Of a DNA stretch of 64,000 bases, positions 4,367-62,493 are shown in pieces. The first letter of the stretch is position 1. The number at the start of each line of letters is the position of its first letter. The position numbers were made by a program, and so were the translations under genes. Source of the DNA: Polyangiaceae bacterium. GTDB lineage: Bacteria; Myxococcota_A; Polyangia; Polyangiales; Polyangiaceae. Where the stretch lies: contig JANXOF010000095.1 of assembly GCA_025353725.1 (NCBI GenBank), positions 62,001 to 126,000 on the forward strand, in the 5' to 3' direction. The notes below the pieces were generated by a model. The model saw only the letters and a program-made list of their open reading frames with translations. It was not told the origin of the DNA and did not search any database.

Positions 4367-4861
4367 TTACATGCCGGCGAGAATCTTAAACGACTCGCCC
4401 TCGGGCACCACCTCCAACCGGTTGTCGGCGACGGCGTGCTTCCACTCCTCGCCCTTGAGTCCCGGGATGCGGTAACTCGCGGAGTACGTGTACTCGATGA
4501 AAACTTTCTTATTTTCGGCGAACGTCACGTTCCGGTAACGAATCTCGTACCGGATCGTCTGCGTTTTTACGAACGTCGACGTCAGGTAGTCTTTGAGGCC
4601 ATCGAAGTCGATGTCGTCCTCGGGGTTCGTGTTGCCCCCGTCCTCGTAGTACTTCGGACTCGCGAGCTTAAGCAGGATGCCCACGTCCTTTTCTTCGACG
4701 GCGTGGCGGTACTGCTCGCAAAACGCGATGACCTTCTTGTTGTCGCTAGAGTCCTCGACGTCCGTGTTGGGGATGAACGTCTTGGAGCATCCCCCCGTGC
4801 TTCCCGCCGCGATGGCGATCGAGAGGGCGAGTGTGAAGGAAACGGGAACGGACTTACGCAT
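4367..4861 (-). CDS. Putative lipoprotein with NTF2/SnoaL-like fold
   Basis: From the ATG at 4861 the product is 164 residues with a lipoprotein signal: MRKSV, a hydrophobic stretch, then STGGC with Cys25. The mature part begins with an acidic linker, then CEQYRHAVEEKDVGILLKLASPKYYEDG, the usual opening helices of the NTF2/SnoaL-like superfamily. A strand-rich half ends in FKILAG. These folds often serve as binding or assembly domains without catalysis, so no function is inferred. GGAG six bases before the ATG at 4861 decides the start; another ATG lies one codon upstream and a TTG at 4876. It lies 64 bp downstream of the second ketosynthase gene and 6 bp before the phosphoesterase gene. Confidence 0.65.
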   Translation of the reverse strand: MRKSVPVSFTLALSIAIAAGSTGGCSKTFIPNTDVEDSSDNKKVIAFCEQYRHAVEEKDVGILLKLASPKYYEDGGNTNPEDDIDFDGLKDYLTSTFVKTQTIRYEIRYRNVTFAENKKVFIEYTYSASYRIPGLKGEEWKHAVADNRLEVVPEGESFKILAGM

Positions 4862-4924
4862 CATGGGCTCCAACAAGGAAGACCTTACGAGGATTCCTGG
4901 GTCAGCGACGACAGAACGACCGGA

Positions 4925-6850
4925 TTAGAGCCAGAAGAAGCGCGCTTTGGCAAATCCCCCCCATGGGCTTTTCACTTCTAGCGTCTCCGGCCGGCCCGAA
5001 GCGAGAGGGAGGAGCACGCGATGAGCTTCGACCGCGTAAGGCAAATCAAGCGTTCCACCAGGGGGAAGCTGCGCGGGGAGGCCCGTCGACCAGGCTTCGA
5101 GACGTGCGGCAAGAGGGGACGCGGCGACGAGCAACGCGACGGCTCCAGGCGCCGTTCCCGGTGCCATCTTCCGCGAGGTTGCTCCTCCTTCGTCGACGGC
5201 AACGACGACGATCCGTTCGGCGACTCCGCCTCGAACGAGGTCTGCCGCCATCGCCAAGGCGTCGAGGCCTCCTAGCGGACCGCCTCCGACGGCGAAGGCG
5301 GGGCCCGTCAGACCGAACGCTACGGCGCACTCACCCGCGACAGCATTCGGAGTTGTATACGGAAACCGTCGGGGCTCGGCGCGCGTTGCGCCCAACGCAC
5401 CGATGCGTGCAAGATACACCTCATTCATGTCCACCGTGGCAAGGCCATGACCGACGATGATTCCGGCCCCCTTAAGCGCGAAGTCCGGCGTTTGAAGCAA
5501 CGAAGCGCGAAGACGCTCCACGGCGGCCAGTGCGAGGCGCACGAGACCGCCGCCGCGAGCAATCTTGTCTTCTGCGTATCCCGTCACGGACGCAAGAAAC
5601 CTGGAGTCTGGAGGTTCAGTGACCGCTGCGGCGGAAGAGATGTAGACGGCACGGCAGCGGTCGCGAATCGGGCGGGCTCGCGACGGGGAGGGCTCGTCCC
5701 GCGTGAGGAGCAAAGCGGCATTCGCGCCACCGAACGCCGCCGAAAGCTTGAGCGCTGTCGCGGCCGAGCAGGCCTCGGCTTGCTCTAAAAGATGGACGCC
5801 CACCTCAAGCGCACCGGCCCCGGCCGAGGCGGGTGCAACGCCGCGTTTCATCGCCTGAAGAGCGGCGAGGGCTTCGAGCGCTCCTCCGGAGCCGAGCGTG
5901 TGCCCCGTCTGACTTTTTAACGCATGAAGGGGCACATGCGCGAGCCGAGAACCGAGCACGGCCGACAACGCCCGCATTTCTGACGCATCGTTGAAAAGCG
6001 TGCCCGTGCCATGCGCACTCACCAAGTCCACCACGGGCCTCCCGGCCTCGTTTATGGCTCCAGCCGCCGCGCGCGCAAGGCCGCGACCTTCGCGACACGG
6101 GGCCGTGAGATGAACCGCATCGCACGAGGCCGCGAAACCCTGGACGTAGCCGTGGACGGGCTGCGCACTTCGATCCGCATCGCCACCGCGGATGAGCGCC
6201 AAGACCGCCGCTCCCTCGCCAAGCGCCAAGCCGTCTCGGCCCACGCGAAACGGGCTTGGTGCGCCATAGGTGCATACGGCACGCAAAGCCTCGAAGCCAG
6301 AAGCCACGAACACGCTGACCGCGTCGAACCCTCCGCAAAGGGCAACGTCACAAGCCCCAGCGAGCAGCCACTCGCGTGCGACTCCGATGGCGAGCGTCGA
6401 CGATGCGCACGCGCCGAGCAGCAGCGCCATCGGCTGAAAATCGCACGGCCGAGACGTCGCCAGCACGGGCCCGAGGTACGTCGCATCCGTAGAACAAAAG
6501 CGCGAACCGCCGGTACGGAACGCGCGCTCGAACGAGCGCATACCTCCGCTCGAGGTTCCGATAGCAAGTCCGACACGGAGTTTGCGCCAGTCGGGTAGCG
6601 AAGCATCAAGCTGGGTTGCGCACATGAGCAGCGCTCGCTCGAGAAGCAACGTTGCGCGGTCGGCGTCTCGTTCAACCGCGTCGATCTCGCGCACACGACC
6701 GCAGAACGGTCGCGTCAGGGATGCCGCCGCGAGTTCGGCGTCTCGGGTCACAGCTAAGCGCGCGGGCTCGCCCACGTCGCCCAATCCAAGCGCATCACGC
6801 CCCTCACCGAGCGCCGAAAGCGCACCGAACGCGACCACGGCGCAGCTCAT
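4925..6850 (-). CDS. Double ketosynthase: active beta-ketoacyl synthase fused to an inactive ketosynthase-like half
   Basis: The 641-residue protein has two condensing-enzyme halves. The first (about 1-385) is a FabB/F-like ketosynthase with the catalytic triad: Cys148 in GACASS, His280 in SAHGTGT, Lys312 and His317 in LKSQTGHTLGSGGA, plus the C-terminal FGGANA motif. The second (about 400-641) has ketosynthase features such as TPNAVAGECAVAFGLTGPAFAV, but the Cys position reads VGGGPLGG and the His motifs are missing, as in chain-length-factor-like subunits. The fusion therefore resembles a covalent KS-CLF pair. Its ATG overlaps the stop of the upstream lipoprotein gene (ATGA), indicating translational coupling. 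It is a shorter relative of the 767-residue protein two genes upstream. The reaction expected is decarboxylative condensation on an ACP-bound acyl chain; the product is unknown. Confidence 0.85.
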   Translation of the reverse strand: MSCAVVAFGALSALGEGRDALGLGDVGEPARLAVTRDAELAAASLTRPFCGRVREIDAVERDADRATLLLERALLMCATQLDASLPDWRKLRVGLAIGTSSGGMRSFERAFRTGGSRFCSTDATYLGPVLATSRPCDFQPMALLLGACASSTLAIGVAREWLLAGACDVALCGGFDAVSVFVASGFEALRAVCTYGAPSPFRVGRDGLALGEGAAVLALIRGGDADRSAQPVHGYVQGFAASCDAVHLTAPCREGRGLARAAAGAINEAGRPVVDLVSAHGTGTLFNDASEMRALSAVLGSRLAHVPLHALKSQTGHTLGSGGALEALAALQAMKRGVAPASAGAGALEVGVHLLEQAEACSAATALKLSAAFGGANAALLLTRDEPSPSRARPIRDRCRAVYISSAAAVTEPPDSRFLASVTGYAEDKIARGGGLVRLALAAVERLRASLLQTPDFALKGAGIIVGHGLATVDMNEVYLARIGALGATRAEPRRFPYTTPNAVAGECAVAFGLTGPAFAVGGGPLGGLDALAMAADLVRGGVAERIVVVAVDEGGATSRKMAPGTAPGAVALLVAASPLAARLEAWSTGLPAQLPPGGTLDLPYAVEAHRVLLPLASGRPETLEVKSPWGGFAKARFFWL

Positions 6851-7629
6851 AGCGACGTCGCACTCTCGCCGTCAGGATCTTCGAAAGCTTCCGGATAAGG
6901 TTCCTTTGGCAACACTTCTTCGACGAACAGGTCGACTTGAAGGCCGGAGCGGCCCTCGACATAGCGGCCGTGCTCACCCGCTTGCGGCACGAGACCGCGC
7001 GATACCCACTCGACAGCTTCGACAGACTCGCCCTCGCGGCGCAACGCGAGGAATCGATGCCCATCGGTGCGCAGCGTCACGGTGCTGCCTCCATCGCGGA
7101 GGACCCAAGAGCTTTCGAGAGGAGACGAACGGCCGAGGAGCAGGCGCCCGTCGAGCGGCGACAGAAACCACCACCTCAACATGCCTATGGGCAACCCCTT
7201 CCACGCGGCTTGGTCGATTCCGCCCCTTCGTTCAAGTTTGAGTGCAGGGAGCACGAAACGAAAGCGACTTTTCGTTACCCACATGTCAAGCGCTGTCGTA
7301 CCCCCCGGACCGAGCAGGATCATGCGCACGGCGTTCCCAGGGCTGACTGCCACGGCACCGCGCGCCTGGAGGGCTTGGCCTGAACGCGGATCGCGTAGCG
7401 TCAGCCGGATGCGTTCTACGTACGAACGCGCAGGCTGTACGCTACGAAGATGCGCGAGGCGCGCGCGAGCCTGCGTCCACTCTGCTTGTGAGAGCCTGGG
7501 CTTCGAAGCGTCGCGCATCAGTTCAGGCACGAGCGGCGTCGAGGTGCCTCTCGAAACGGCTTGCCCGCATCCGGGCAGGAACGGCAAAAGCGTGAGCGTT
7601 CGCCGCGCCCACCTAAAACAGTACGTCAA
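6847..7629 (-). CDS. Putative LolA/LolB-like lipoprotein between two ketosynthase genes
   Basis: The chosen start is TTG at 7629, overlapping the upstream stop as TTGA, giving 260 residues. It creates a lipoprotein signal peptide: basic FRWARR, hydrophobic TLTLLPFLP, then GC with Cys21. Longer in-frame extensions are antisense-like and lie wholly in the upstream gene. The mature part has an alternating strand pattern (ARGAVAVSPGNAVRMILLGPGGTTALDMWVTKSRFRF) resembling LolA/LolB-fold lipoprotein carriers and DUF3261-type lipoproteins found in aryl-polyene clusters; this is fold-level similarity by eye. Its place between two ketosynthase genes suggests it binds or moves the lipid made by the pathway towards the outer membrane. 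Its stop overlaps the next ATG (ATGA). Confidence 0.65.
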   Translation of the reverse strand: MTYCFRWARRTLTLLPFLPGCGQAVSRGTSTPLVPELMRDASKPRLSQAEWTQARARLAHLRSVQPARSYVERIRLTLRDPRSGQALQARGAVAVSPGNAVRMILLGPGGTTALDMWVTKSRFRFVLPALKLERRGGIDQAAWKGLPIGMLRWWFLSPLDGRLLLGRSSPLESSWVLRDGGSTVTLRTDGHRFLALRREGESVEAVEWVSRGLVPQAGEHGRYVEGRSGLQVDLFVEEVLPKEPYPEAFEDPDGESATSL

Positions 7630-9929
7630 GGCTGCCTCGCAACCCCGACGCGGGAGGCCGCGGTAGGGCGATAGCGGCCGATCGTGATCGCGTAGCCCGA
7701 GCCGCGCGAAGAACCGAGGCACAAAACGGAGTTCAACGACGCGTCCGCCGCGAGCGTCCCCACGGCCATGGCGATGGCAAGGCCACCCGCCGCTTCGTGC
7801 GAGCCGACGCTTTCCGCGCACGGGATGCGTCGACAGGAAGCCCATCCACCGCGCTCGAGGATGGCCTCGAGCTCTGGATTTCCGGAGGCGAGGATCACGG
7901 CGGCGCGCGTCCCTTCGGTAGAGGACGGCGGCGCGATCTCACTCGGCGGCGCGTCGTCATTCCACCAAGCGATCACTTGCTCGACGCGGGCCAAGATGGG
8001 TAGCTTTCTCTGTAGGGCGACGTCCTCGGCCGCGAGCGCGACCGCCCCCGCTCCCTCCCGCCGCGTGGGTCGCTTGCCGGCCTCCGAATCCGCCCGGGCC
8101 GAACCGAAAATCACGCCGAGTACGTGGTCTACGAGGATGCTCTTTTCTTCGACGGCCACCGACGCAACGCGATCGCATACGCCAGTCGCGATCATTTCCC
8201 ACGCCTGCGTGAACGCGCACTCACCCGACACGGCGAGATCGGCGACCACGAGAGTCGGCCCCGTTAAGCCGAGATAAATCGAGACATGACCTGCAGGCGA
8301 ACTCGGGACAAGGTTCGGAAAATCCGAAGGGCTCACGAACCGAGCGCCCTTTTCACGGAGGCGCCGCATGTAAGCCGCCGTCGCGTCGACGGCTCCGTAC
8401 GCGTTGCCAAACACGACCCCGGCGTCACTCGCGCCCGATCCTAGCGCGTGGCTGCAGACGAGAGCCGCAAGGCGCGAGACACGGTCGAGCCGGCGCGCAC
8501 GTCTCGCGTCAAGAGAGGCGTCCACGTCAAGCGCTATCGACTCAGCTTGACAGGCGTGGGTCGATAACTCGGCGATAGCAGCCCCAGAAAAGGTCCCCGC
8601 AGGCGTTATCGCGGCTGCGCCCGTGATGACCACCGGACGACCGCGAGGGCGCCAGGGACGGACCTGCATGGCTCCTCCCGTCACGGAGGCCCGTCCAAAA
8701 ACCAGAACGGCATCCATACCGCCAAAGCCGAAGGAACTCGAAACGGCCACGTTGACGACGCGCGCTTCCGCCTCGCGCACGTGCCGAAGCGGACACTCGG
8801 TATCCGGGTCTTCAAGACCACCGGTCGGCGGAACGATTCCGTTGGCGACCGCCATCGCCGTGATCGCAGCTTCGATGGCCCCGCTCGCCGCCAGCGTATG
8901 ACCGAACTGCCCTTTCTGACTCGATACGGGGATGTGGGCGACCGACGCGCCGAAGACGTGCGCAAGGGCGCGCGCCTCCATGAGGTCATTCAGGGGCGTG
9001 CCCGTGCCGTGGGCGTTAACGTAGTCGACCGACGCCGGCATAACGCCCGCGCGAACGAGCGCCGCATGCATCGCGCGCGCCGGAGCACGTCCACTCGGCT
9101 CCGGATTTGTGATGTGGTGAGCCTCCGCGGCGGTCGACCAACCCAGGAGCGTGCATATTGCACTTTTGCCGCGCGCACGTGCGCCCGAAGCACGCTCGAG
9201 AACGACGAAGCCCGCGCCTTCGCCCAAAGTGAGGCCACGCCGGCCGCGATCGAACGGTTTCGCGCCTGTCGGGTCAAGCGCTCCGAGCGCGTTAAACCCG
9301 CTTAGCGTGATACGGCAAAGCGCATCCGCGGCGCCGCAAAGGACAGCATCCACGACGCCGAGTTCAAGCCAGGTCGCGCCGACGAGGATGGCGTTCGCGC
9401 CGCTCGAACATGCGCTTGACAGCGACCGAACGCGGGAAAACGGCCCGAGTTCGCGCGCGAGGCGCGTCGTGGGCGCGCTGAGTGGATGACTCAACATGCG
9501 ACGCCATTCGACGTCCCCCACGGCAAGGTCGACCTCTCCGCTCGGACGAAAACCACACCCCAGGAGCAGCTCGGTTTCGAGCATTCCGGCCGTCGTCCCA
9601 CCGACCACGAGCCCGATGCGAGCGGGACCTCCGTCACCCGAAGCCTGCGGAGGCCCGAACGACCTAGGGAACGCGAGGCCCGCCGACGTGAGCGCCTCGC
9701 GTGCGGCGTGCACGGCGAGCTCACTCGTGCGCGACACGTCGCCTTCCTTGTCATCCGCGCGCATCCCGGGCACCTCCGCCACGAGGCGCACGCGGTAATC
9801 GTCGGCGGAGAAAAGCGAAAGCTCCGAAAACGCGCGATCACCGCGCACGACGCGCTCCCACGTTTCAGCGACGCTCTTGCCAAGCGCCGTGACCAGTCCG
9901 AGTCCCGTGACAACGATCACCGGTGTCAC
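7626..9929 (-). CDS. Double ketosynthase: FabF-like synthase fused to an inactive ketosynthase-like half
   Basis: The 767-residue protein starts at GTG 9929, overlapping the ACP stop as GTGA. Residues 1-412 form a complete KAS II-type domain: VTGLGLVTALG at the N-terminus, Cys174 in SSACSSG, His307 in NAHGTGT, Lys339 and His344 in SQKGQFGHTLAASGA, and SSSFGFGG near 398-404. Residues about 431-767 restart with VVITGAAAITPAG and keep LVPSSPAGHVSIYLGLTGPTLVV, but the nucleophile position reads ADLAVSG with no Cys. This half looks like a chain-length-factor-like, noncatalytic ketosynthase. The arrangement equals that of the 641-residue protein downstream, so the operon encodes two such fusions. 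Expected role: condensation with the ACP encoded just upstream. Confidence 0.87.
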   Translation of the reverse strand: MTPVIVVTGLGLVTALGKSVAETWERVVRGDRAFSELSLFSADDYRVRLVAEVPGMRADDKEGDVSRTSELAVHAAREALTSAGLAFPRSFGPPQASGDGGPARIGLVVGGTTAGMLETELLLGCGFRPSGEVDLAVGDVEWRRMLSHPLSAPTTRLARELGPFSRVRSLSSACSSGANAILVGATWLELGVVDAVLCGAADALCRITLSGFNALGALDPTGAKPFDRGRRGLTLGEGAGFVVLERASGARARGKSAICTLLGWSTAAEAHHITNPEPSGRAPARAMHAALVRAGVMPASVDYVNAHGTGTPLNDLMEARALAHVFGASVAHIPVSSQKGQFGHTLAASGAIEAAITAMAVANGIVPPTGGLEDPDTECPLRHVREAEARVVNVAVSSSFGFGGMDAVLVFGRASVTGGAMQVRPWRPRGRPVVITGAAAITPAGTFSGAAIAELSTHACQAESIALDVDASLDARRARRLDRVSRLAALVCSHALGSGASDAGVVFGNAYGAVDATAAYMRRLREKGARFVSPSDFPNLVPSSPAGHVSIYLGLTGPTLVVADLAVSGECAFTQAWEMIATGVCDRVASVAVEEKSILVDHVLGVIFGSARADSEAGKRPTRREGAGAVALAAEDVALQRKLPILARVEQVIAWWNDDAPPSEIAPPSSTEGTRAAVILASGNPELEAILERGGWASCRRIPCAESVGSHEAAGGLAIAMAVGTLAADASLNSVLCLGSSRGSGYAITIGRYRPTAASRVGVARQP

Positions 9930-10225
9930 TCCGTGCGAGAGCCTACCGCGTTCGCCTTGCGCTCCTGAACGATGAAGGCCGCGAGTGAACTTACGGAGAG
10001 GAAGATCGGCCGCGCGTCGTCGCCCTCGGGAACGCGGACGCCGAACGCCTCTTCGACGACCATCGCAATCTGCAAAGCGTCGAGCGAATCGAGACCAAGA
10101 CCCCCCGTTTGGGTTTCACCGAAAAGGTGCGCGTCGTCCGCGATAGCGGCCGGGTCTCGCCCCGAAAGGTTCAATTCGGCGACGAGGAGGACCTTGATCT
10201 CGTATTTGAGGTCATCGGCGGACAT
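9926..10225 (-). CDS. Acyl carrier protein
   Basis: The 99-residue product starts at ATG 10225. It has the phosphopantetheine attachment motif GLDSLDALQIAMVVEEAFGV, with the serine in the D-S-L triplet (about residue 46), and an acidic helical profile typical of ACPs. An extended loop (HLFGETQTGGLGLDSLD) before the serine is longer than in FabH-type housekeeping ACPs and resembles ACPs of dedicated polyketide or lipid operons. It is the first gene of the ketosynthase operon and its stop overlaps the GTG of the next gene. The longer frame upstream of 10225 would run through the intergenic region and has no supporting features. Phosphopantetheinylation would be done by a transferase encoded elsewhere. 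Confidence 0.88.
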   Translation of the reverse strand: MSADDLKYEIKVLLVAELNLSGRDPAAIADDAHLFGETQTGGLGLDSLDALQIAMVVEEAFGVRVPEGDDARPIFLSVSSLAAFIVQERKANAVGSRTE

Positions 10226-10346: not shown

Positions 10347-11141
10347 ATGGGAACTCTGGTCAACTACAGGACCGAAAAAGGCGTGGCGGTCCTTACGCTG
10401 AACGATCCGCCAGTGAATGCCTACAGCCACGAAATGCTGAAGGAGCTCGACGGCTACATCCTCGAGGCCCGCTTCGACAACGACGTGCACGTTCTTGTTC
10501 TCACGGGTCGCGGCGAAAAATTTTTCTGCGCGGGCGCGAACATCAACATGCTGCGCGAGGCGGACAGCACATTCAAATACTACTTCTGCCTTCACGCCAA
10601 CGAAACGATTTCACGACTCGAGCAAACGCCCAAGCTTGTTATCGCAGCCCTCAATGGCCACGCCGTCGGCGGCGGACTCGAAGTCGCTCTCGCGTGCGAT
10701 TTGCGGATTGCCCGCACAGGGGAATGCCAAATAGGCCTTCCTGAGATCGCGCTCGGCGTTTTACCGGGAACGGGCGGGACGCAGCGGCTTACCCGCCTGC
10801 TTGGAAAGTCACGCGCGATGGAGATGATGATCGAGGGCGCAAAGTTGAACGTCGAGCGCGCGGCCGAACTCGGGCTCGTCAACAAGGCATGGGCGGCCGA
10901 GTCGTCGGACGATTTTTTGCGCAAGGTCGTCGACTATGCGCGCGGCTTTTGCCCTCCAAACAGCGCGTCGATGGCGGTCGGAGCCATCAAACGTGCCGTG
11001 CAGAGCGGTGCGGAAATGAGCCTCGAGCAGGGACTCGCGTTCGAGCGCGAGCTCCAAGCCGAGCTCTTCGCGTCCGCCGACGCCAAAGAGGGGCTAGACG
11101 CTTACCTTGGAAAACGAAAACCGCAATTCAAGGGCGCCTGA
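10347..11141 (+). CDS. Enoyl-CoA hydratase/isomerase family protein
   Basis: The 264-residue protein is a standard-length crotonase. It has the oxyanion-hole segments FFCAGANI (59-66) and NGHAVGGGLEVALACD (103-118), with the two catalytic glutamates at Glu112 and Glu133 (LPEIALGVLPGTGGTQRL), both present as in active hydratases. The C-terminal helix region ends at KRKPQFKGA. Enzymes of this type hydrate trans-2-enoyl-CoA in beta-oxidation, but related crotonases also act as isomerases or in secondary metabolism, so the substrate is open. The ATG at 10347 is preceded by AAGG. The gene diverges from the ACP-ketosynthase operon across 121 bp, so joint regulation is possible but not shown. Confidence 0.9.
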   Translation: MGTLVNYRTEKGVAVLTLNDPPVNAYSHEMLKELDGYILEARFDNDVHVLVLTGRGEKFFCAGANINMLREADSTFKYYFCLHANETISRLEQTPKLVIAALNGHAVGGGLEVALACDLRIARTGECQIGLPEIALGVLPGTGGTQRLTRLLGKSRAMEMMIEGAKLNVERAAELGLVNKAWAAESSDDFLRKVVDYARGFCPPNSASMAVGAIKRAVQSGAEMSLEQGLAFERELQAELFASADAKEGLDAYLGKRKPQFKGA

Positions 11142-11165: not shown

Positions 11166-11192
11166 CGCTCGCGCCCTTAGCCCGCGCGAGCG
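11166..11192. terminator. Hairpin between convergent genes (candidate bidirectional terminator)
   Basis: CGCTCGCG (11166-11173) and CGCGAGCG (11185-11192) form an 8-bp perfect stem around the convergent ends of the enoyl-CoA hydratase and DUF1704 genes, overlapping the last codons of the latter. No T-run follows, so intrinsic termination is uncertain. Confidence 0.35.
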
Positions 11193-12709
11193 AAGAGCTT
11201 GGCGTAGTAGTCGCTAATCGCATCTCCACCGAGGCGCGTAAAAAACGTTGAGTAGGCCATCCAGATGGCCAGGCCGTTGAGGTCGCGGAACATAGGAGGG
11301 AGGTAGTGAGGTGGCTTTACGACGCCATCGTTCACGCGGCGCGCGAGAATAGGCACGTCTTCGTGGGCCACTTTGCCGACGAAGAGAAACGGAATTAAGT
11401 CGACGCGTCGGTGCTGAATCGCGCTTCGTATGAAGGCGTAGTTGAGAACGATACCTTTGCAGTAGCAAGCATCCTTCGTGAAAGGCGCTCCCCCGCCGAC
11501 CACGCCGCCACGAAAGATGCGGCGCGTGTTGTTGAAACACTCCTCCTCGTCGTAGCCCTCGGTGCGAAACCACTCGAAAACGTCCAGAAAGCTAGCGCCG
11601 TCTTCTGCTTTGTCGACCGCAAGAACCCGGTCGTTTAACCGACGCGCCCGACGCGGGTACGTGCGAAAGGTGAAGATTTCGCAAAGCGCGGCAAGGCCCT
11701 CCTGAACCGTCGTCGTGCGGGGCGGGCCCTTACTCAGCCACTTGGCGACGGTTTGCGCTTCGCCGTTGAGCGACGTCGCGACGTGCACCCAGCCCTCATG
11801 GACCTCGAGAATGTCGATGTCGCGTGTCGAAAACTTCGCGCCAGACCGAACCTTAACGTAATCGCTGCCGGCAGCGGCATCGCTGAGGAGAGTGTCATCC
11901 ACCTCAACGCGGACGGCGCTGTCCCCAAAGTAGGCTTCAAAGCGGCGGTTAAGCTCGGCGGCGGCATCGACGGCGTCGATGTTTCGCTCATAGGTCATTC
12001 CTAAAAGCGTCTCGTCGATGTTCGTGAGGATCTCGTAAAGCAAGTGGCCGAGATCACGCAACGACGTCTTGCCGTCGGGAAACTTGTCCTTGCAGGATCC
12101 GTAAAGCTTGCGTGAATAGGCGTAAAAAACTGGCGTACCGCGCGAGCCGAGCATCCGCACGACGTCGCGGTACTCGAGCGCCGTGCTCGTAAGAATCGCG
12201 CCGATGGCATCCGATTCGCCCAATTCGCGGTCGATGTCGCGCGCGATCTCCTCAAACTCGGCCGCCTTCGACGCCGGGTCAAACCCAAGGTCTTGCTTTT
12301 CGTAGTAGCCGGCGTCGACCTTCGGAAGCTCTCGAAAGCGATGCTTACGGAAGTCCTCCTCGATAGCGCCGTCCCACCGAATCGCCTGCAGCACGCGAAT
12401 GGGTCGCTGCGCGTCGACGATACGCGTCGCAATTTGCGCCACGATTTCCTTGTAGCTTCGCCAAGGACCCGCCGCAGGTAGCGGAGGAATGGAGGGATGC
12501 GCGGAAGGAACCGGCTCGCCTTGGCTTTTTTCGAGCTTCTCCGGAGAGGTCACGCTTGCCCGCGCGGGCTTCGATTCGGGTGCTGGCGGGAACACGCTTC
12601 GAGCACTCGCCCTGTCCGCCTTCGCTTCCTTTTCCTTGGTCGGCTTCGCGTCGTCGGACTCTTTGACCTTTCGGCGTTCCGCGTCCTCGGGGGGAGCTCG
12701 TTCGACCAT
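11177..12709 (-). CDS. DUF1704 / MATCAP-like putative metallopeptidase (QEGLA-motif protein)
   Basis: From ATG 12709 the product is 510 residues. An N-terminal 80 residues are Lys/Glu/Pro-rich and likely disordered. The conserved part has HEGWVH (304-309), an H-E-x3-H zinc motif, and TTTVQEGLA (332-340), the signature of proteins annotated as flavohemoglobin expression-modulating QEGLA-motif proteins (DUF1704). This bacterial family is related to eukaryotic tyrosine-tail carboxypeptidases (MATCAP); a metallopeptidase role is therefore likely but the substrate is unknown. The frame stays open to an ATG at 12841, whose codon overlaps the divergent MOSC gene's ATG at 12840-12842; both cannot easily be right, so the internal ATG is preferred. 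No clear ribosome-binding site decides it. Confidence 0.8.
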   Translation of the reverse strand: MVERAPPEDAERRKVKESDDAKPTKEKEAKADRASARSVFPPAPESKPARASVTSPEKLEKSQGEPVPSAHPSIPPLPAAGPWRSYKEIVAQIATRIVDAQRPIRVLQAIRWDGAIEEDFRKHRFRELPKVDAGYYEKQDLGFDPASKAAEFEEIARDIDRELGESDAIGAILTSTALEYRDVVRMLGSRGTPVFYAYSRKLYGSCKDKFPDGKTSLRDLGHLLYEILTNIDETLLGMTYERNIDAVDAAAELNRRFEAYFGDSAVRVEVDDTLLSDAAAGSDYVKVRSGAKFSTRDIDILEVHEGWVHVATSLNGEAQTVAKWLSKGPPRTTTVQEGLAALCEIFTFRTYPRRARRLNDRVLAVDKAEDGASFLDVFEWFRTEGYDEEECFNNTRRIFRGGVVGGGAPFTKDACYCKGIVLNYAFIRSAIQHRRVDLIPFLFVGKVAHEDVPILARRVNDGVVKPPHYLPPMFRDLNGLAIWMAYSTFFTRLGGDAISDYYAKLFARAG

Positions 12710-12839
12710 GTGGCGCTCATTTTCTGCTTTGCGCGCCTCAATATCCAGCAATTTGCAAACAGAGTGACGGACTCGAGCGCTAAAGTGTCGCAATGGGTCG
12801 GTTTTTGATCTCAGTGGTGGTCGTTTTGGGGCACGCGTC

Positions 12840-13640
12840 ATGAACGTCGTCGAACTGCACGTCTATCCACTAAAGAGTGCAGGGGGAATTTCGCTCCAAC
12901 GCACAGACGTGCTTCGAGGAGGCTTTCGTCACGACCGTCGCTTCATGCTGGTCGACGCGAACGGCTCGTTTATCTCGCAACGTTCGCAGCCGAGGCTCGC
13001 GCTCGTCACGACGGCGATGGAGGGCTCGTCGCTTATTCTAACGACCCCGCGGGGCGCTTCGGCCACGGTTCCTCTCGCTCCTGAGGGCCCTCGCCGCACC
13101 GTCCGTATCTGGAACGACATAGTCGAGGCTATCGAGGTGTCAGGCGACGCCGCTCGCATGTTTTCGGACTACACGGGAGCCCCCTGCTCGCTCGTCTTTA
13201 TGCCCGAAGAGGTCGTGCGTCCGCTCGAAGCGCCGTACGGCAAGCCGGGCGAACGCGTCGGCTTCGCGGACGGCTTTCCCGTGCTCCTCGCAACGCGCCC
13301 CTCACTCGACGAACTCAATGGCCGACTCGCGGAACCGATTCGGATGAATCGCTTTCGTGCAAACCTCGTCGTCGAGGGCGGCACACCTTTCGAGGAGGAC
13401 TTGTATGCGCGCGTTCACATCGGTTCGATTGGATTTCGCATGCCCAAACGATGCGCGCGCTGCGAGATTACGACGGTCGAACAGGAGACGGGACGCATCG
13501 GCAAAGAGCCGCTGCGCACGCTCGCCAAGTACCGAGTCACGGACAAACACGTGTACTTCGCACAGAACATCGTCCCAGACCGTGAAGGCTCGATTGCCCT
13601 TGGCGATGCAGTGACCTACCTCGAACCGCTTCGCCGCTAA
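12840..13640 (+). CDS. MOSC-domain protein (YcbX/mARC-like)
   Basis: The 266-residue protein begins with the MOSC N-terminal beta-barrel domain (ELHVYPLKSAGGISLQ, then RHDRRFMLVDANGSFISQR) and continues with a MOSC domain. It contains the conserved Cys in MPKRCARCEITTVEQETG, the residue expected to coordinate molybdenum cofactor. The end FAQNIVPDREGSIALGDAVT is typical. Relatives reduce N-hydroxylated compounds using a molybdenum cofactor and partner reductases; no ferredoxin domain is fused here, unlike E. coli YcbX. Start at ATG 12840 gives the expected N-terminus. It is convergent with the MoxR gene and divergent from the DUF1704 gene. Confidence 0.88.
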   Translation: MNVVELHVYPLKSAGGISLQRTDVLRGGFRHDRRFMLVDANGSFISQRSQPRLALVTTAMEGSSLILTTPRGASATVPLAPEGPRRTVRIWNDIVEAIEVSGDAARMFSDYTGAPCSLVFMPEEVVRPLEAPYGKPGERVGFADGFPVLLATRPSLDELNGRLAEPIRMNRFRANLVVEGGTPFEEDLYARVHIGSIGFRMPKRCARCEITTVEQETGRIGKEPLRTLAKYRVTDKHVYFAQNIVPDREGSIALGDAVTYLEPLRR

Positions 13641-19962: not shown

Positions 19963-19992
19963 AGTATCGCGAACCGGCAACGCCAATGTCAA
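19963..19992 (-). promoter_or_regulatory. Sigma-70-type promoter for the DUF507/pseudouridine synthase operon
   Basis: On the minus strand TTGACA (19992-19987) and GATACT (19968-19963) are separated by 18 bp. The -35 is a perfect consensus and the -10 is a fair match. The predicted transcript would start near 19956, giving a leader of about 20 nt that contains the GAGGAG site before the ATG at 19935. Confidence 0.55.
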
Positions 19993-20057
19993 AGGGATGC
20001 TCACGGGTCGACACTCGCAGTATACGTAGGCAAACGAGCGCTCCGGTGAATGCACGC

Positions 20058-21959
20058 ATGTTTCCCGCAAATTCAAGTTCAGCCTTTCCCTCGTTCTCAA
20101 CCTTCCCCGCAGCCCTCGAGGACGCCGCGAAGGCCGACCCAACCCTCGGCTTTCGGTTCATTTCGGAAGACGGAGTGCCTGGGTTTGCGTCGTCGGGCGC
20201 ACCGCAGCGGCAAACAAGCGAGGCGTCGTTTTCCTACACCGCACTCGAAAGGGCGAGCGCACGCTACGGCGGCGCCCTTCAGGCACTTGGGCTAGCGAAA
20301 GGCGACCGAGTCGCGCTCATTTTGCCCGCGGCTGAGGACTTCGTTCTCTGTTTTCTCGGTGCCATGCGCGCGGGAATCGTCCCCGTTCCCATCTATCCAC
20401 CGCTCGGACTCGGGCAGCTTCAAGGCTACCTCGACAACACGCGCCACATTGTCGCGAAGTCCGGCGCACGCGCCCTCGTCACGAGCGGACAGATTAAACG
20501 CATGCTCGGTACGGTCCAGGCGGCGTGTCCCGCGCTTGAGCAGGTGGTCGCCGTCGAGGCGATTCGTGAGTCCCTTGAGCCCCTTGTCCCGGTCAAGCTC
20601 ACCGGTGATGACCTCGCGTTTCTCCAGTTCACGAGCGGGTCAACCTCGCGTCCGAAGGGGGTCGCCCTTTCGCATGCGAACCTGATGGCGAACGTGAAAT
20701 GCATCACGCACGACGGCCTCCGCATGACGGGAGAAGACGTCGGCGTGTCGTGGTTGCCGCTCTATCACGATATGGGGCTCATTGGCTTCGTCCTGGCGCC
20801 CATTCTCTACCGAACGCCTATCGTGTTCTTACCACCGCTGCTCTTTCTCAAGCGGCCCGTAAGCTGGCTCCAGGCCATGACACGCCATAAAGGCACGATA
20901 TCGTTCGGGCCGAACTTTGCTTATGCGCTATGCGTAAAGCGAATTCGCGAGCGCGAATTGGCCAATATCGATCTTTCGAGCTGGCGCGTCGCCGGCTGCG
21001 GTGCAGAGCCCATTCGGCCTGAAACGCTCGAATCGTTTGCCGCGACCTTCGCGAAGGTCGGATTTTCCGCGAAGGCTCTCCTCCCGTCTTACGGGATGGC
21101 CGAATCGTCCCTCGCGATCTCGTTTACAGAGCGCAACGAGGGCATGAAGACGCTTAGCGTCGACGGCGAGACTCTTTGGACCGAAAACGTCGCAAAGTGC
21201 GTTCCGGAAGGCCATCCCGGCGCGGTGCGTCTCGTTTCATGCGGCTCGAGTTTCATAGATCATGAGATCGCAGTGTTCGCCGAAGACGACACCCTGAGTA
21301 GCGCCCAGCTCGCGGAAGACACGGTCGGAGAACTACGACTTCGCGGCCCAAGCGTCATGACCGGTTACTGGGAAGACGAGGCTCGCACGCGCGACGCCTT
21401 CGCCGGAGGCTGGCTAAAAACCGGGGACCTCGGTGTGATCCACGACGGGCACGTCTTTATCTGCGGGAGGTCGAAAGAGGTCATTATCGTCAACGGCCGA
21501 AACTATTATCCCCAAGATATCGAGTGGGAGGCAAGTCATGTCGAAGGAGTGCGAAAGGGCAACGTCATCGCTTTCGGTGCGCGCGACCACACCGAGCGTG
21601 ATCGCGAGCGCGTGGTCGTCGCATTCGAGGTGCAAGAGGCACAGCCTGACCTAAGCGCCAAGGAGCTCGCTCTCCTGAAGCAGCCCGTGGCTTTGCTCAT
21701 ACGCAAAGCGGTTCTCGACGGTATGAACCTGTCGATTGACGACGTGGTCCCGCTCGCTCCTGGCGTCCTTCCGAAGACGTCGAGCGGCAAACTCCAGCGT
21801 GCGAAGACGCGTGAACTTTATGAGTCAGGGTCGCTTCTCGAGCGTAAGAGTGCGCGCGAGGAGGACCGCTTTGACATCTTGAAAGCGGCTGCGAAAAGCC
21901 AGCTCTCCTACTTTAAGCTTGCCGTCCTTAGTACGACGCGCGGGCCAAAGAAGGAATAG
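20058..21959 (+). CDS. Fatty-acyl-AMP ligase (FAAL-type AMP-binding protein)
   Basis: From ATG 20058 the protein has 633 residues. It is an adenylate-forming enzyme: P-loop FTSGSTSRPKGV (191-202), LPLYHDMGLIG, SYGMAESSLAISF, TGDLGV and the C-terminal catalytic-lysine region KTSSGKLQR. Traits typical of FAALs rather than acyl-CoA ligases include GPNFAYALCVKRIRERE and NGRNYYPQDIEW. FAALs activate fatty acids as acyl-adenylates and load them on carrier proteins instead of CoA. The thioesterase gene follows after 6 bp. No carrier protein is next to it; the only ACP in the window is 10 kb away in the ketosynthase operon. The frame stays open to 19986, but family length and the good divergent promoter favour the later start. 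Confidence 0.85.
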   Translation: MFPANSSSAFPSFSTFPAALEDAAKADPTLGFRFISEDGVPGFASSGAPQRQTSEASFSYTALERASARYGGALQALGLAKGDRVALILPAAEDFVLCFLGAMRAGIVPVPIYPPLGLGQLQGYLDNTRHIVAKSGARALVTSGQIKRMLGTVQAACPALEQVVAVEAIRESLEPLVPVKLTGDDLAFLQFTSGSTSRPKGVALSHANLMANVKCITHDGLRMTGEDVGVSWLPLYHDMGLIGFVLAPILYRTPIVFLPPLLFLKRPVSWLQAMTRHKGTISFGPNFAYALCVKRIRERELANIDLSSWRVAGCGAEPIRPETLESFAATFAKVGFSAKALLPSYGMAESSLAISFTERNEGMKTLSVDGETLWTENVAKCVPEGHPGAVRLVSCGSSFIDHEIAVFAEDDTLSSAQLAEDTVGELRLRGPSVMTGYWEDEARTRDAFAGGWLKTGDLGVIHDGHVFICGRSKEVIIVNGRNYYPQDIEWEASHVEGVRKGNVIAFGARDHTERDRERVVVAFEVQEAQPDLSAKELALLKQPVALLIRKAVLDGMNLSIDDVVPLAPGVLPKTSSGKLQRAKTRELYESGSLLERKSAREEDRFDILKAAAKSQLSYFKLAVLSTTRGPKKE

Positions 21960-21965
21960 CGAGCG

Positions 21966-22409
21966 GTGATTACCCATCTTCGAGCGGTGCACTTCGAGGA
22001 AGTTGACGTAGCCGGAGTGGTATTTTTCGCCCGGTTTTTCGGCTACGCACACGACGCGATGGAGCGTTTCTTCGATGATCTTGAGGGCGGCTACGTGGCG
22101 CTCGTCAACAAGCGTTCGATTGGCTTCCCTGCTGTCCACGCCAGTGCAGACTACAAGAGTCCGATTCGCTACGGCGACGTCGTGCGCATCACGGGAGACG
22201 TAACGAGGCTTGGCACCACCGCCGCTCATTTTTCCTTCGTCATGACGCGCGTCCGGGACGCGGTGCACGTCGCCACGATGATGCACGTTCATGTGTGCAC
22301 CGACATCAGGGCTATGGCGAAGCTCGCCTTCCCGCCCGACGTCCGTGCAGCCTTAGAACGTCACCTCGTCCCGAGCCCTCCCGCCTCTGCCCCCCTTGCG
22401 GACGCTTAG
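21966..22409 (+). CDS. 4-hydroxybenzoyl-CoA thioesterase-like (hotdog fold) acyl thioesterase
   Basis: The 147-residue protein begins with ITHLRAVHFEEVDVAGVVFFARFFGYAHDAMERF, the hotdog-fold signature with the catalytic Asp in the E-V-D-V-A-G-V-V segment of 4HBT-type thioesterases. A beta-sheet follows with YKSPIRYGDVVRI. These enzymes hydrolyse acyl-CoA or acyl-ACP. It starts at GTG 21966, 6 bp after the acyl-AMP ligase gene, so the pair is surely cotranscribed and probably acts on the same acyl chain, one loading and one releasing or editing. It ends convergently with lgt. Confidence 0.85.
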   Translation: MITHLRAVHFEEVDVAGVVFFARFFGYAHDAMERFFDDLEGGYVALVNKRSIGFPAVHASADYKSPIRYGDVVRITGDVTRLGTTAAHFSFVMTRVRDAVHVATMMHVHVCTDIRAMAKLAFPPDVRAALERHLVPSPPASAPLADA

Positions 22410-61530: not shown

Positions 61531-62493
61531 CTACGCGAAGAGCGAGCTGACCGAATCAGAGCTGTGAATACGCTTGATTGCTTCGCCAAGCAGGCGCGCC
61601 ATGCTGACTTGCTTGATCTTCGGGCAGAGCCGCGCCGCCGGAGAAAGTGGGATGGTGTCCGACACGATGACTTCGTCGAGGGGAGACTCTTCGATTCGCT
61701 GAATCGCCGGGCCGGAGAGCACGCCGTGCGTCGCGCATGCGACGACGCGCGTAGCGCCGAATTCCATGAGCGCTCGGGCCGCGCCCGTGAGCGTCCCCGC
61801 CGTGTCAATCATGTCGTCGACGATGATGCACTGCTTGCCCTTCACGTCGCCGATGAGGTTCATGACCTCCGAAACGTTCGCGCGCTCCCGACGCTTGTCG
61901 ATAATCGCAAGACTCGCATTAAGGCGCTTGGAGTATGCGCGCGCGCGCTCGACACCGCCGGCGTCAGGCGAGACGACACAAGCCGTCGAGTCAAAGTTTT
62001 TCTTGAGGTAGTCCTCGAGCATGATCGGCATGCCGTAGAGGTGGTCGAACGGGATGTTGAAAAATCCCTGAATCTGCCCTGCGTGAAGGTCGATGGAGAC
62101 CACACGGTCGATCCCCGACGATTCGATAAGGTCGGCGACAAGCTTCGACGTAATCGGCGTGCGTGGCGCGACCTTCCGGTCCTGACGCGCGTACCCGTAG
62201 TACGGCATCACGGCCGTGATCGTTCCCGCGGAGGCGCGGCGCAACGTGTCCGCAATAATCAGGAGCTCCATCACGTGGTCGTTGACGGGACTACACGTCG
62301 GCTGAATGACGAAAGCGTCGACTCCGCGCACGTTCTCGTTAATTTCGACGAAGGTTTCGCCGTCGCTGAATCGCTGAACCTTGATTTTTCCCAGCGGCGT
62401 TTCAAGGTAAGCAGCAATGTCGCGCGCCAACTCCGGGTTGGCGTTGCCGGAAAAGAGGCAGACCTTCTTAAACAAGCGAGCGCCGCCTCTCAC
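61531..62493 (-). CDS. prs: Ribose-phosphate pyrophosphokinase
   Basis: The 320-residue enzyme makes PRPP from ribose-5-phosphate and ATP. It has the class I features [35 protein letters not shown], the metal/ATP loop [39 protein letters not shown] and the PRPP-binding [13 protein letters not shown]. The start is GTG 62493; a TTG six codons later has a better-spaced purine-rich site and is an alternative. A TTGACA motif at 62562-62557 lies upstream. It heads the prs-rplY-pth-rpsF-rpsR-rplI-dnaB block. Confidence 0.95.

Follow-up and report, generated by a model that had tools for sequence, protein, structure and literature searches.

An acyl carrier protein, fused ketosynthase, and lipoprotein operon of Polyangiaceae that resembles the condensing core of aryl-polyene systems

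The four genes and their products

The stretch of DNA analyzed (the window) comprises 64,000 nucleotides from a Polyangiaceae bacterium and corresponds to positions 62001 to 126000 of contig C90 of an assembly of 6.6 Mb in 98 contigs. On its minus strand lie four consecutive genes, encoding an acyl carrier protein (ACP) of 99 amino acids (10225-9926, ATG start at 10225); a ketosynthase (KS) fused to a chain-length factor (CLF), referred to as KS-CLF1, of 767 amino acids (9929-7626, GTG start at 9929); a LolB-like lipoprotein of 260 amino acids (7629-6847, TTG start at 7629, lipobox LPGC); and a second such fusion, KS-CLF2, of 641 amino acids (6850-4925, ATG start at 6850). Stop and start codons overlap at all three junctions, in the order GTGA, TTGA, and ATGA, which confirms the translational coupling of the four genes proposed in a preliminary description of this DNA. 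Four-base overlaps were also found in related loci, for which the start codon closest to the preceding stop was taken as the gene start. They were present at 29 of the 36 scored KS-CLF1/lipoprotein junctions and at 34 of the 36 scored lipoprotein/KS-CLF2 junctions (each of these denominators keeps one split or misassigned row, L060 and L035), as well as at the ACP/KS-CLF1 junction of 15 of the 44 related loci. Since the same overlaps recur in related loci, the gene arrangement is not due to chance. In addition, the rate of nonsynonymous substitutions (dN) was below that of synonymous substitutions (dS) in all 24 comparisons, made for three genes in eight pairs.

The ACP contains the carrier-serine motif GLGLDSLDALQ, as judged by eye, and matches PF00550 with 26.4 bits and NF006617/PRK09184 with 60.5 bits, the latter below the model cut-off of 70. 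Against Escherichia coli ApeE it scored 59 bits, and the operon loci that hold an ACP scored 55 to 79 bits; E. coli ApeF gave no match to the window ACP at an E value of 1e-4. By sequence, the ACP is thus ApeE-like, which is the ACP type of an aryl-polyene (APE) cluster. In the APE system, ApeE is the preferred ACP for starter loading, according to excerpts of PMC8253772.

Pfam ketosynthase domains were detected in the N-terminal part of both long proteins, which had been described as double ketosynthases. In KS-CLF1, an intact ketosynthase (approximately residues 1 to 415) is fused to a truncated CLF (approximately residues 420 to 767), and in KS-CLF2 a second intact ketosynthase is fused to a shorter CLF. 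The four catalytic residues (Cys, His, Lys, and His) are conserved in every one of 43 KS-CLF1 proteins and 38 genuine KS-CLF2 proteins, the latter set excluding five KS-CLF1 self-matches (L035, L051, L054, L079, and L098). In a single alignment, the Cys column of the C-terminal halves is occupied by Ala (CLF1) or Pro (CLF2) and both His motifs are absent; E. coli ApeC is likewise devoid of them. The ketosynthase domains of the preliminary description were thus recovered, but two functioning ketosynthases per protein are ruled out because the C-terminal halves lack the Cys and both His residues. Both proteins instead combine one catalytic ketosynthase (Cys, His, and His) with a KS-like partner devoid of the active-site Cys, as is characteristic of KS-CLF pairs.

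The ketosynthases matched the FabF and PRK09185 families best, in no case reaching the curated cut-off, and PF13723 (Ketoacyl-synt_2) matched the C-terminal half of KS-CLF1 at a borderline level (24.7 bits by hmmscan and 27 bits when the genome was searched, with a cut-off of 25). An AlphaFold2 model of KS-CLF1, based on 32 sequences, had a predicted local distance difference test (pLDDT) score of 87.0 and a predicted TM-score (pTM) of 0.92. Its top Foldseek match was the KS-CLF didomain of PfaC (6riw; E value of 2.7e-45; TM-score by query length [TMq] of 0.75), which ranked above single FabF chains, with a root mean square deviation (RMSD) of 6.6 over 920 columns and 16% identity. In a VIA comparison restricted to the KS half, FabF was matched with a Z score of about 61, 397 aligned residues, and an RMSD of 1.9. 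Given the intact KS sites, the second halves without Cys and His, and the PfaC didomain as top match, KS-CLF1 and KS-CLF2 are each best interpreted as a KS-CLF pair on one chain, on the basis of sequence for both and of the model for KS-CLF1. An Arg-Arg pair is present in 19 of 19 CLF1 rows and aligns with an ARR sequence in E. coli ApeC. According to excerpts of PMC8358021, ApeC of Acinetobacter baumannii is a half-size protein with a single thiolase fold and the conserved surface residues Arg30 and Arg31, to which the CLF1 pair probably corresponds.

The lipoprotein starts with a short signal sequence followed by the lipobox, the Cys of which is conserved in 90% or more of 35 relatives. The Pfam profiles LolA, LolB, and DUF3261 matched none of these 35 lipoproteins at E values of up to 1. 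The top Foldseek matches of its AlphaFold2 model (pLDDT of 88.1, pTM of 0.81) were LolA/LolB structures; the best TMq, 0.55, was obtained with LolB of Porphyromonas gingivalis (9tpm), and LolA of this species was matched with an E value of 7.2e-7 and a TMq of 0.40. The VIA comparison with 9tpm resulted in a Z score of 15.1 and an RMSD of 3.6 for 195 aligned residues, and the top VIA rows were LolA/LolB-type chains and one DUF1329 chain. The lipoprotein is thus predicted to adopt a LolA/LolB-type fold, which by itself is no proof of the cargo.

Occurrence in related genomes

We analyzed 58 relatives, most of which are metagenome bins. KS-CLF1 orthologues, full or partial, were counted at 287 bits or more, and CLF2 orthologues were considered clear above 119 bits. 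KS-CLF1 was found in 25 genomes, CLF2 in 24, and the lipoprotein, as a single copy, in 22. Both enzymes were present in 22 of the 58 genomes, one alone in 5, and neither in 31 (Fisher P value of 9.5e-11, not corrected for kinship). Of the genomes with the lipoprotein, 20 of 22 contained KS-CLF1 and the other two (G012 and G055) contained CLF2. Among 377 genomes of the phylum, 18 had lipoprotein matches, namely, 16 strong ones, confined to families f1 and f8, and 2 weak ones (E values of 5e-5 and 9e-5).

Removal of 15 duplicates left 44 nonredundant loci with an ACP gene beside KS-CLF1, in 6 of which a contig ends within about 1 kb of KS-CLF1. The full four-gene set was present in 32 of the 38 loci not cut by contig ends. 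The four genes thus co-occur in related genomes, and a lack of such co-occurrence, which the preliminary description had named as grounds for refutation, was not observed. An adjacent KS-CLF2 was missing in three of the 38 loci (L046, L052, and L098). The set of genome G049 is split over two contigs (L046 and L060), and its lipoprotein gene stays beside KS-CLF2 on the other contig. A CLF1 profile scan of a named genome collection, which used one peptide pattern and may have missed relatives, returned 37 loci. Thirty-one were in records named as myxobacteria, including Sorangium cellulosum So0157-2, So ce26, So ceGT47, and So0008-312, Polyangium, Minicystis rosea, Byssovorax, Labilithrix, Polyangiaceae, and Myxococcales; the records of the remaining 6 say just delta proteobacterium or Deltaproteobacteria. 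All four genes were found in the cultured strains S. cellulosum So ce26, So0157-2, and So ceGT47, Polyangium fumosum DSM 14668, and Minicystis rosea DSM 24000.

These data bear on the question of whether the lipoprotein is part of the pathway or merely a partner on the transcript, with the KS-CLFs serving ordinary fatty acid synthesis or the synthesis of a cytosolic metabolite. The latter explanation would fit a fold that leaves the cargo unproven, the existence of enzyme-bearing genomes and loci without the lipoprotein, and a dN/dS ratio that was higher for the lipoprotein than for KS-CLF1 in seven of eight pairs. However, four-base coupling occurs on both sides of the lipoprotein gene in most loci, and none of the 58 relatives was found to carry the lipoprotein without KS-CLF1 or CLF2. 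We therefore regard a mere transcript partner as quite unlikely.

Aryl-polyene genes, reducing enzymes, and neighboring loci

To search for APE genes, 17 APE proteins of E. coli were compared with the collected loci, using the APE clusters of two relatives (L062 and L064) as controls. ApeQ, ApeM, ApeL, ApeK, and ApeJ matched both controls; ApeH, ApeG, ApeC, and the ACP queries matched L064; and ApeB matched L062. In the operon loci, just the ACP and KS queries gave matches, apart from a single 52-bit match of the ketoreductase ApeQ in L088; the stretches of the other 43 of the 44 nonredundant loci had no ApeQ match. ApeP, ApeI, ApeD, and ApeN matched no locus, and these blanks, including that of the DUF3261 protein ApeN, carry no weight since the controls gave no match either. 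A search of the window's own genome with PF22817 (ApeP family) was also without match and is uninformative, as no control genome matched. Dehydratase queries taken from L063 and L059 matched each other and no operon locus, and ketoreductase queries from L063 and L064 retrieved four clusters and, weakly, L088 (77 and 64 bits). The absence of reductive and ligase genes noted previously is thus borne out locally for the ketoreductase, with one weak match in L088, and for the ligase, but it is less secure for dehydratases, for which the E. coli queries had no working control. Any such genome surely encodes general FabG and FabZ enzymes, and the gap is one of a dedicated reducing gene at the locus; this statement concerns the neighborhood, no genome-wide search for FabG/FabZ having been made.

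In an alternative interpretation, the product would be an unreduced or barely reduced poly-beta-keto compound of the type made by minimal type II polyketide synthases (PKSs), for example, a pyrone or a beta-keto head group. An ACP plus a KS-CLF is the gene content of a minimal type II PKS, and the lack of ApeQ in 43 of 44 loci, to which the relatives' ketoreductase and dehydratase queries add just the weak L088, agrees with it. On the other hand, the ketosynthases have FabF and PRK09185 as best family matches (below cut-offs) and the ACP is ApeE-like, both pointing to reducing systems, and a divergent gene of the enoyl-CoA hydratase family neighbors the operon in 28 of 44 loci. An unreduced product consequently appears unlikely.

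Alternatively, the operon might be part of an APE cluster the remaining genes of which are dispersed in the genome. The ApeE-like ACP, the half-size CLF, the LolB-like lipoprotein, and 10 matches to MMPL exporters elsewhere in the window's own genome are in line with this idea. Several data argue against it. (i) The ApeJ-type transferase of L062 gave only partial matches of at most 113 bits in 11 operon genomes, versus 250 bits in the other APE genome. (ii) Among the matches listed, the scores of the APE KS-CLF of L062 did not exceed 177 bits in these 11 genomes, versus 423 bits in the other APE genome. (iii) Four stretches of the window's own genome around 7 of the 10 MMPL matches had no Ape-like neighbors by eye. 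(iv) The operon ketosynthases group with neither ApeO nor ApeR. A dispersed APE cluster is hence very unlikely.

The divergent gene (10347-11141, plus strand) encodes a member of the enoyl-CoA hydratase/isomerase family (PF00378, 194 bits) and lies within 1.5 kb of the ACP gene in the 28 of 44 nonredundant loci mentioned above. With a divergent neighbor in this fraction of loci, its membership is uncertain, and it may or may not belong to the system. Downstream of the operon, a small lipoprotein-like gene (4367-4876, minus strand; NTF2-like by eye only) is on the same strand in 31 of 44 loci. It was rejected as part of the system because it is an old neighbor, present in 56 of the 58 relatives whether or not the operon is there. 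The window also contains a MATCAP/QEGLA-family metallopeptidase-like gene (11177-12841, 430 bits), which is near the operon in many loci, and a fatty acyl-AMP ligase-like gene with a small gene after it that looks thioesterase-like by eye (19986-22409); these two are not linked to the operon in relatives.

Other KS systems were observed in the collected loci. A second KS system, in which two genes of the KS family are combined with two ACPs and a fatty acyl-AMP ligase-like gene, is found in the window's own genome (L065:543-8415, contig C76) and in L069:2520-7392; in L065, it lies beside a class I/II aminotransferase-family gene that is alpha-oxoamine synthase-like by eye (Pfam on L065 only). 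The APE clusters L062:3894-17471 and L064:3691-19900 encode ApeO-type ketosynthases with a C-terminal extension (705 and 668 amino acids, respectively), apparently ApeO-ApeC fusions, with ammonia-lyase and flavin adenine dinucleotide-dependent genes nearby, by eye. A third type in the family, another long KS protein with an ACP, occurs in L063:5308-11031 and L068:9163-11543, and a ketoreductase together with a FabA-like gene was seen in L063 and L059:10733-14514 (Pfam on L063 only). On contig C90 itself, L119:3132-11914 contains inositol-phosphate synthase- and CDP-alcohol phosphotransferase-like genes, by eye, upstream of an MMPL gene and is a possible inositol-lipid locus.

Proposed function and comparison with known systems

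Our preferred interpretation, for which we see support and doubt evenly balanced, is that the operon is a lineage-specific, Polyangiaceae-type acyl or polyketide assembly unit, similar to the APE core, the acyl chain of which is reduced by enzymes encoded elsewhere and delivered to the outer membrane in the form of a lipid. The ACP would hold the growing chain, and KS-CLF1 and KS-CLF2 would elongate it by malonyl units, possibly one after the other or each to a length of its own. The beta-keto groups would be processed in trans, most simply by the housekeeping enzymes FabG, FabZ, and FabI, and a transferase encoded elsewhere would transfer the chain onto a lipid. The LolB-like lipoprotein may then receive this lipid at the outer membrane, by analogy with the proposed role of ApeN in APE systems; in excerpts of PMC8253772, APE clusters are described as encoding the LolB-like ApeN beside ApeO. 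The LolB-like lipoprotein and the parallel with APE systems are what suggests a lipid pathway, and the product would most likely be a modified acyl chain in a lipid of the outer membrane.

A number of observations weigh against this interpretation. (i) The TM-scores of the lipoprotein model are modest, ranging from 0.36 to 0.55 by query length among the LolA/LolB rows. (ii) No lipoprotein match was obtained in 5 of the 25 genomes with KS-CLF1 (G001, G016, G023, G031, and G032), and the lipoprotein alone is missing, with both KS-CLFs kept, in 3 of the 38 uncut loci (L053, L056, and L102); the enzymes can therefore do without the lipoprotein. In L098, neither the lipoprotein nor KS-CLF2 was found in the 9 kb downstream. 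(iii) An exporter, transferase, starter ligase, and thioesterase of the APE type, all of which the APE model needs, were not found near the operon in the loci searched. In the APE system, ApeM is the likely exporter and ApeL is LolA-like, according to the above excerpts of PMC8253772. (iv) In a BLAST search at an E value of 1e-4, E. coli ApeC matched none of the operon CLF halves and only L064; given this result and the borderline PF13723 match, the designation "ApeC-like" rests on size, layout, and alignment. (v) In a tree of 50 KS domains, ApeO clustered with L062_a and L064_a and ApeR with L062_b and L064_b (support of 100/100 in both cases), whereas KS1 (18 rows, 85/78) and KS2 (16 rows, 100/100) were outside these two groups; the support for the KS1 group is just 85/78.

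Sorangium is reported to have unusual outer-membrane lipids and no lipopolysaccharide. If the operon couples chain building to an outer-membrane lipid carrier, it would provide a gene handle on the lipid chemistry of Sorangium. It also offers, in culturable strains, a free-standing fused KS-CLF as a simplified counterpart of the ApeO-ApeC and PfaC machines. The preliminary description had raised an undescribed lipid pathway. That Polyangiaceae, Sorangium among them, have an outer-membrane lipid not described before, made by a minimal unit of synthase and carrier with twin fused KS-CLFs, a private ACP, its own LolB-like lipoprotein for delivery, and no dedicated reducing enzymes, is a possibility we put forward tentatively and consider rather doubtful. 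Among the papers found in searches of the open-access literature, judged by titles and the beginnings of abstracts, none describes the operon. Genome-mining tools may label such loci as aryl polyene: excerpts of the M. rosea genome paper (PMC8436480) list two arylpolyene clusters, and in those of a study of activated-sludge Myxococcota (PMC11821767) aryl polyenes are frequent antiSMASH calls, occurring in some Polyangiales.

The resemblance to the APE core that had been pointed out initially stands, and consists of the ApeE-like ACP, a KS with a half-size CLF, and the LolB-like lipoprotein. In its content, the operon thus resembles the condensing core of the APE system, but it does not qualify as an APE cluster, since the searches for the ketoreductase, ligase, transferase, and exporter and the grouping of the ketosynthases did not place it there. 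Like the APE cluster of E. coli CFT073 (L108), the operon has an ApeE-type ACP, a KS paired with a half-size CLF, a LolB-like protein encoded beside the KS (ApeN, DUF3261, in APE), and two condensing systems per cluster (ApeO-ApeC and ApeR in APE). It differs from this cluster in that KS and CLF are fused, in having two KS-CLF pairs and no ApeR-type KS, and in the lack of nearby matches to ApeQ (one weak match), ApeH, ApeK, ApeJ, ApeM, and ApeB; furthermore, its ketosynthases group apart, its CLFs are not matched by ApeC, and its lipoprotein has no Pfam DUF3261 match. With LolB and LolA carriers the lipoprotein shares the predicted fold (Z score of 15.1 against LolB of P. gingivalis), and it has a lipobox like LolB, whereas its identity is about 11%, it has no Pfam LolA or LolB match, it occurs in only 22 of 58 relatives, and it is encoded beside KS-CLF genes. 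The minimal type II PKSs (actinorhodin, ishigamide, and AntDE) likewise consist of KS, CLF, and a discrete ACP, but the operon has a fused KS-CLF in two versions and a LolB-like lipoprotein. Finally, the KS-CLF didomain of PfaC from polyunsaturated fatty acid synthases is a single-chain KS-CLF, too, and the top Foldseek match over the whole KS-CLF1 chain, whereas the operon proteins, at 16% identity, are free-standing, have a truncated CLF half, and are accompanied by a separate ACP.

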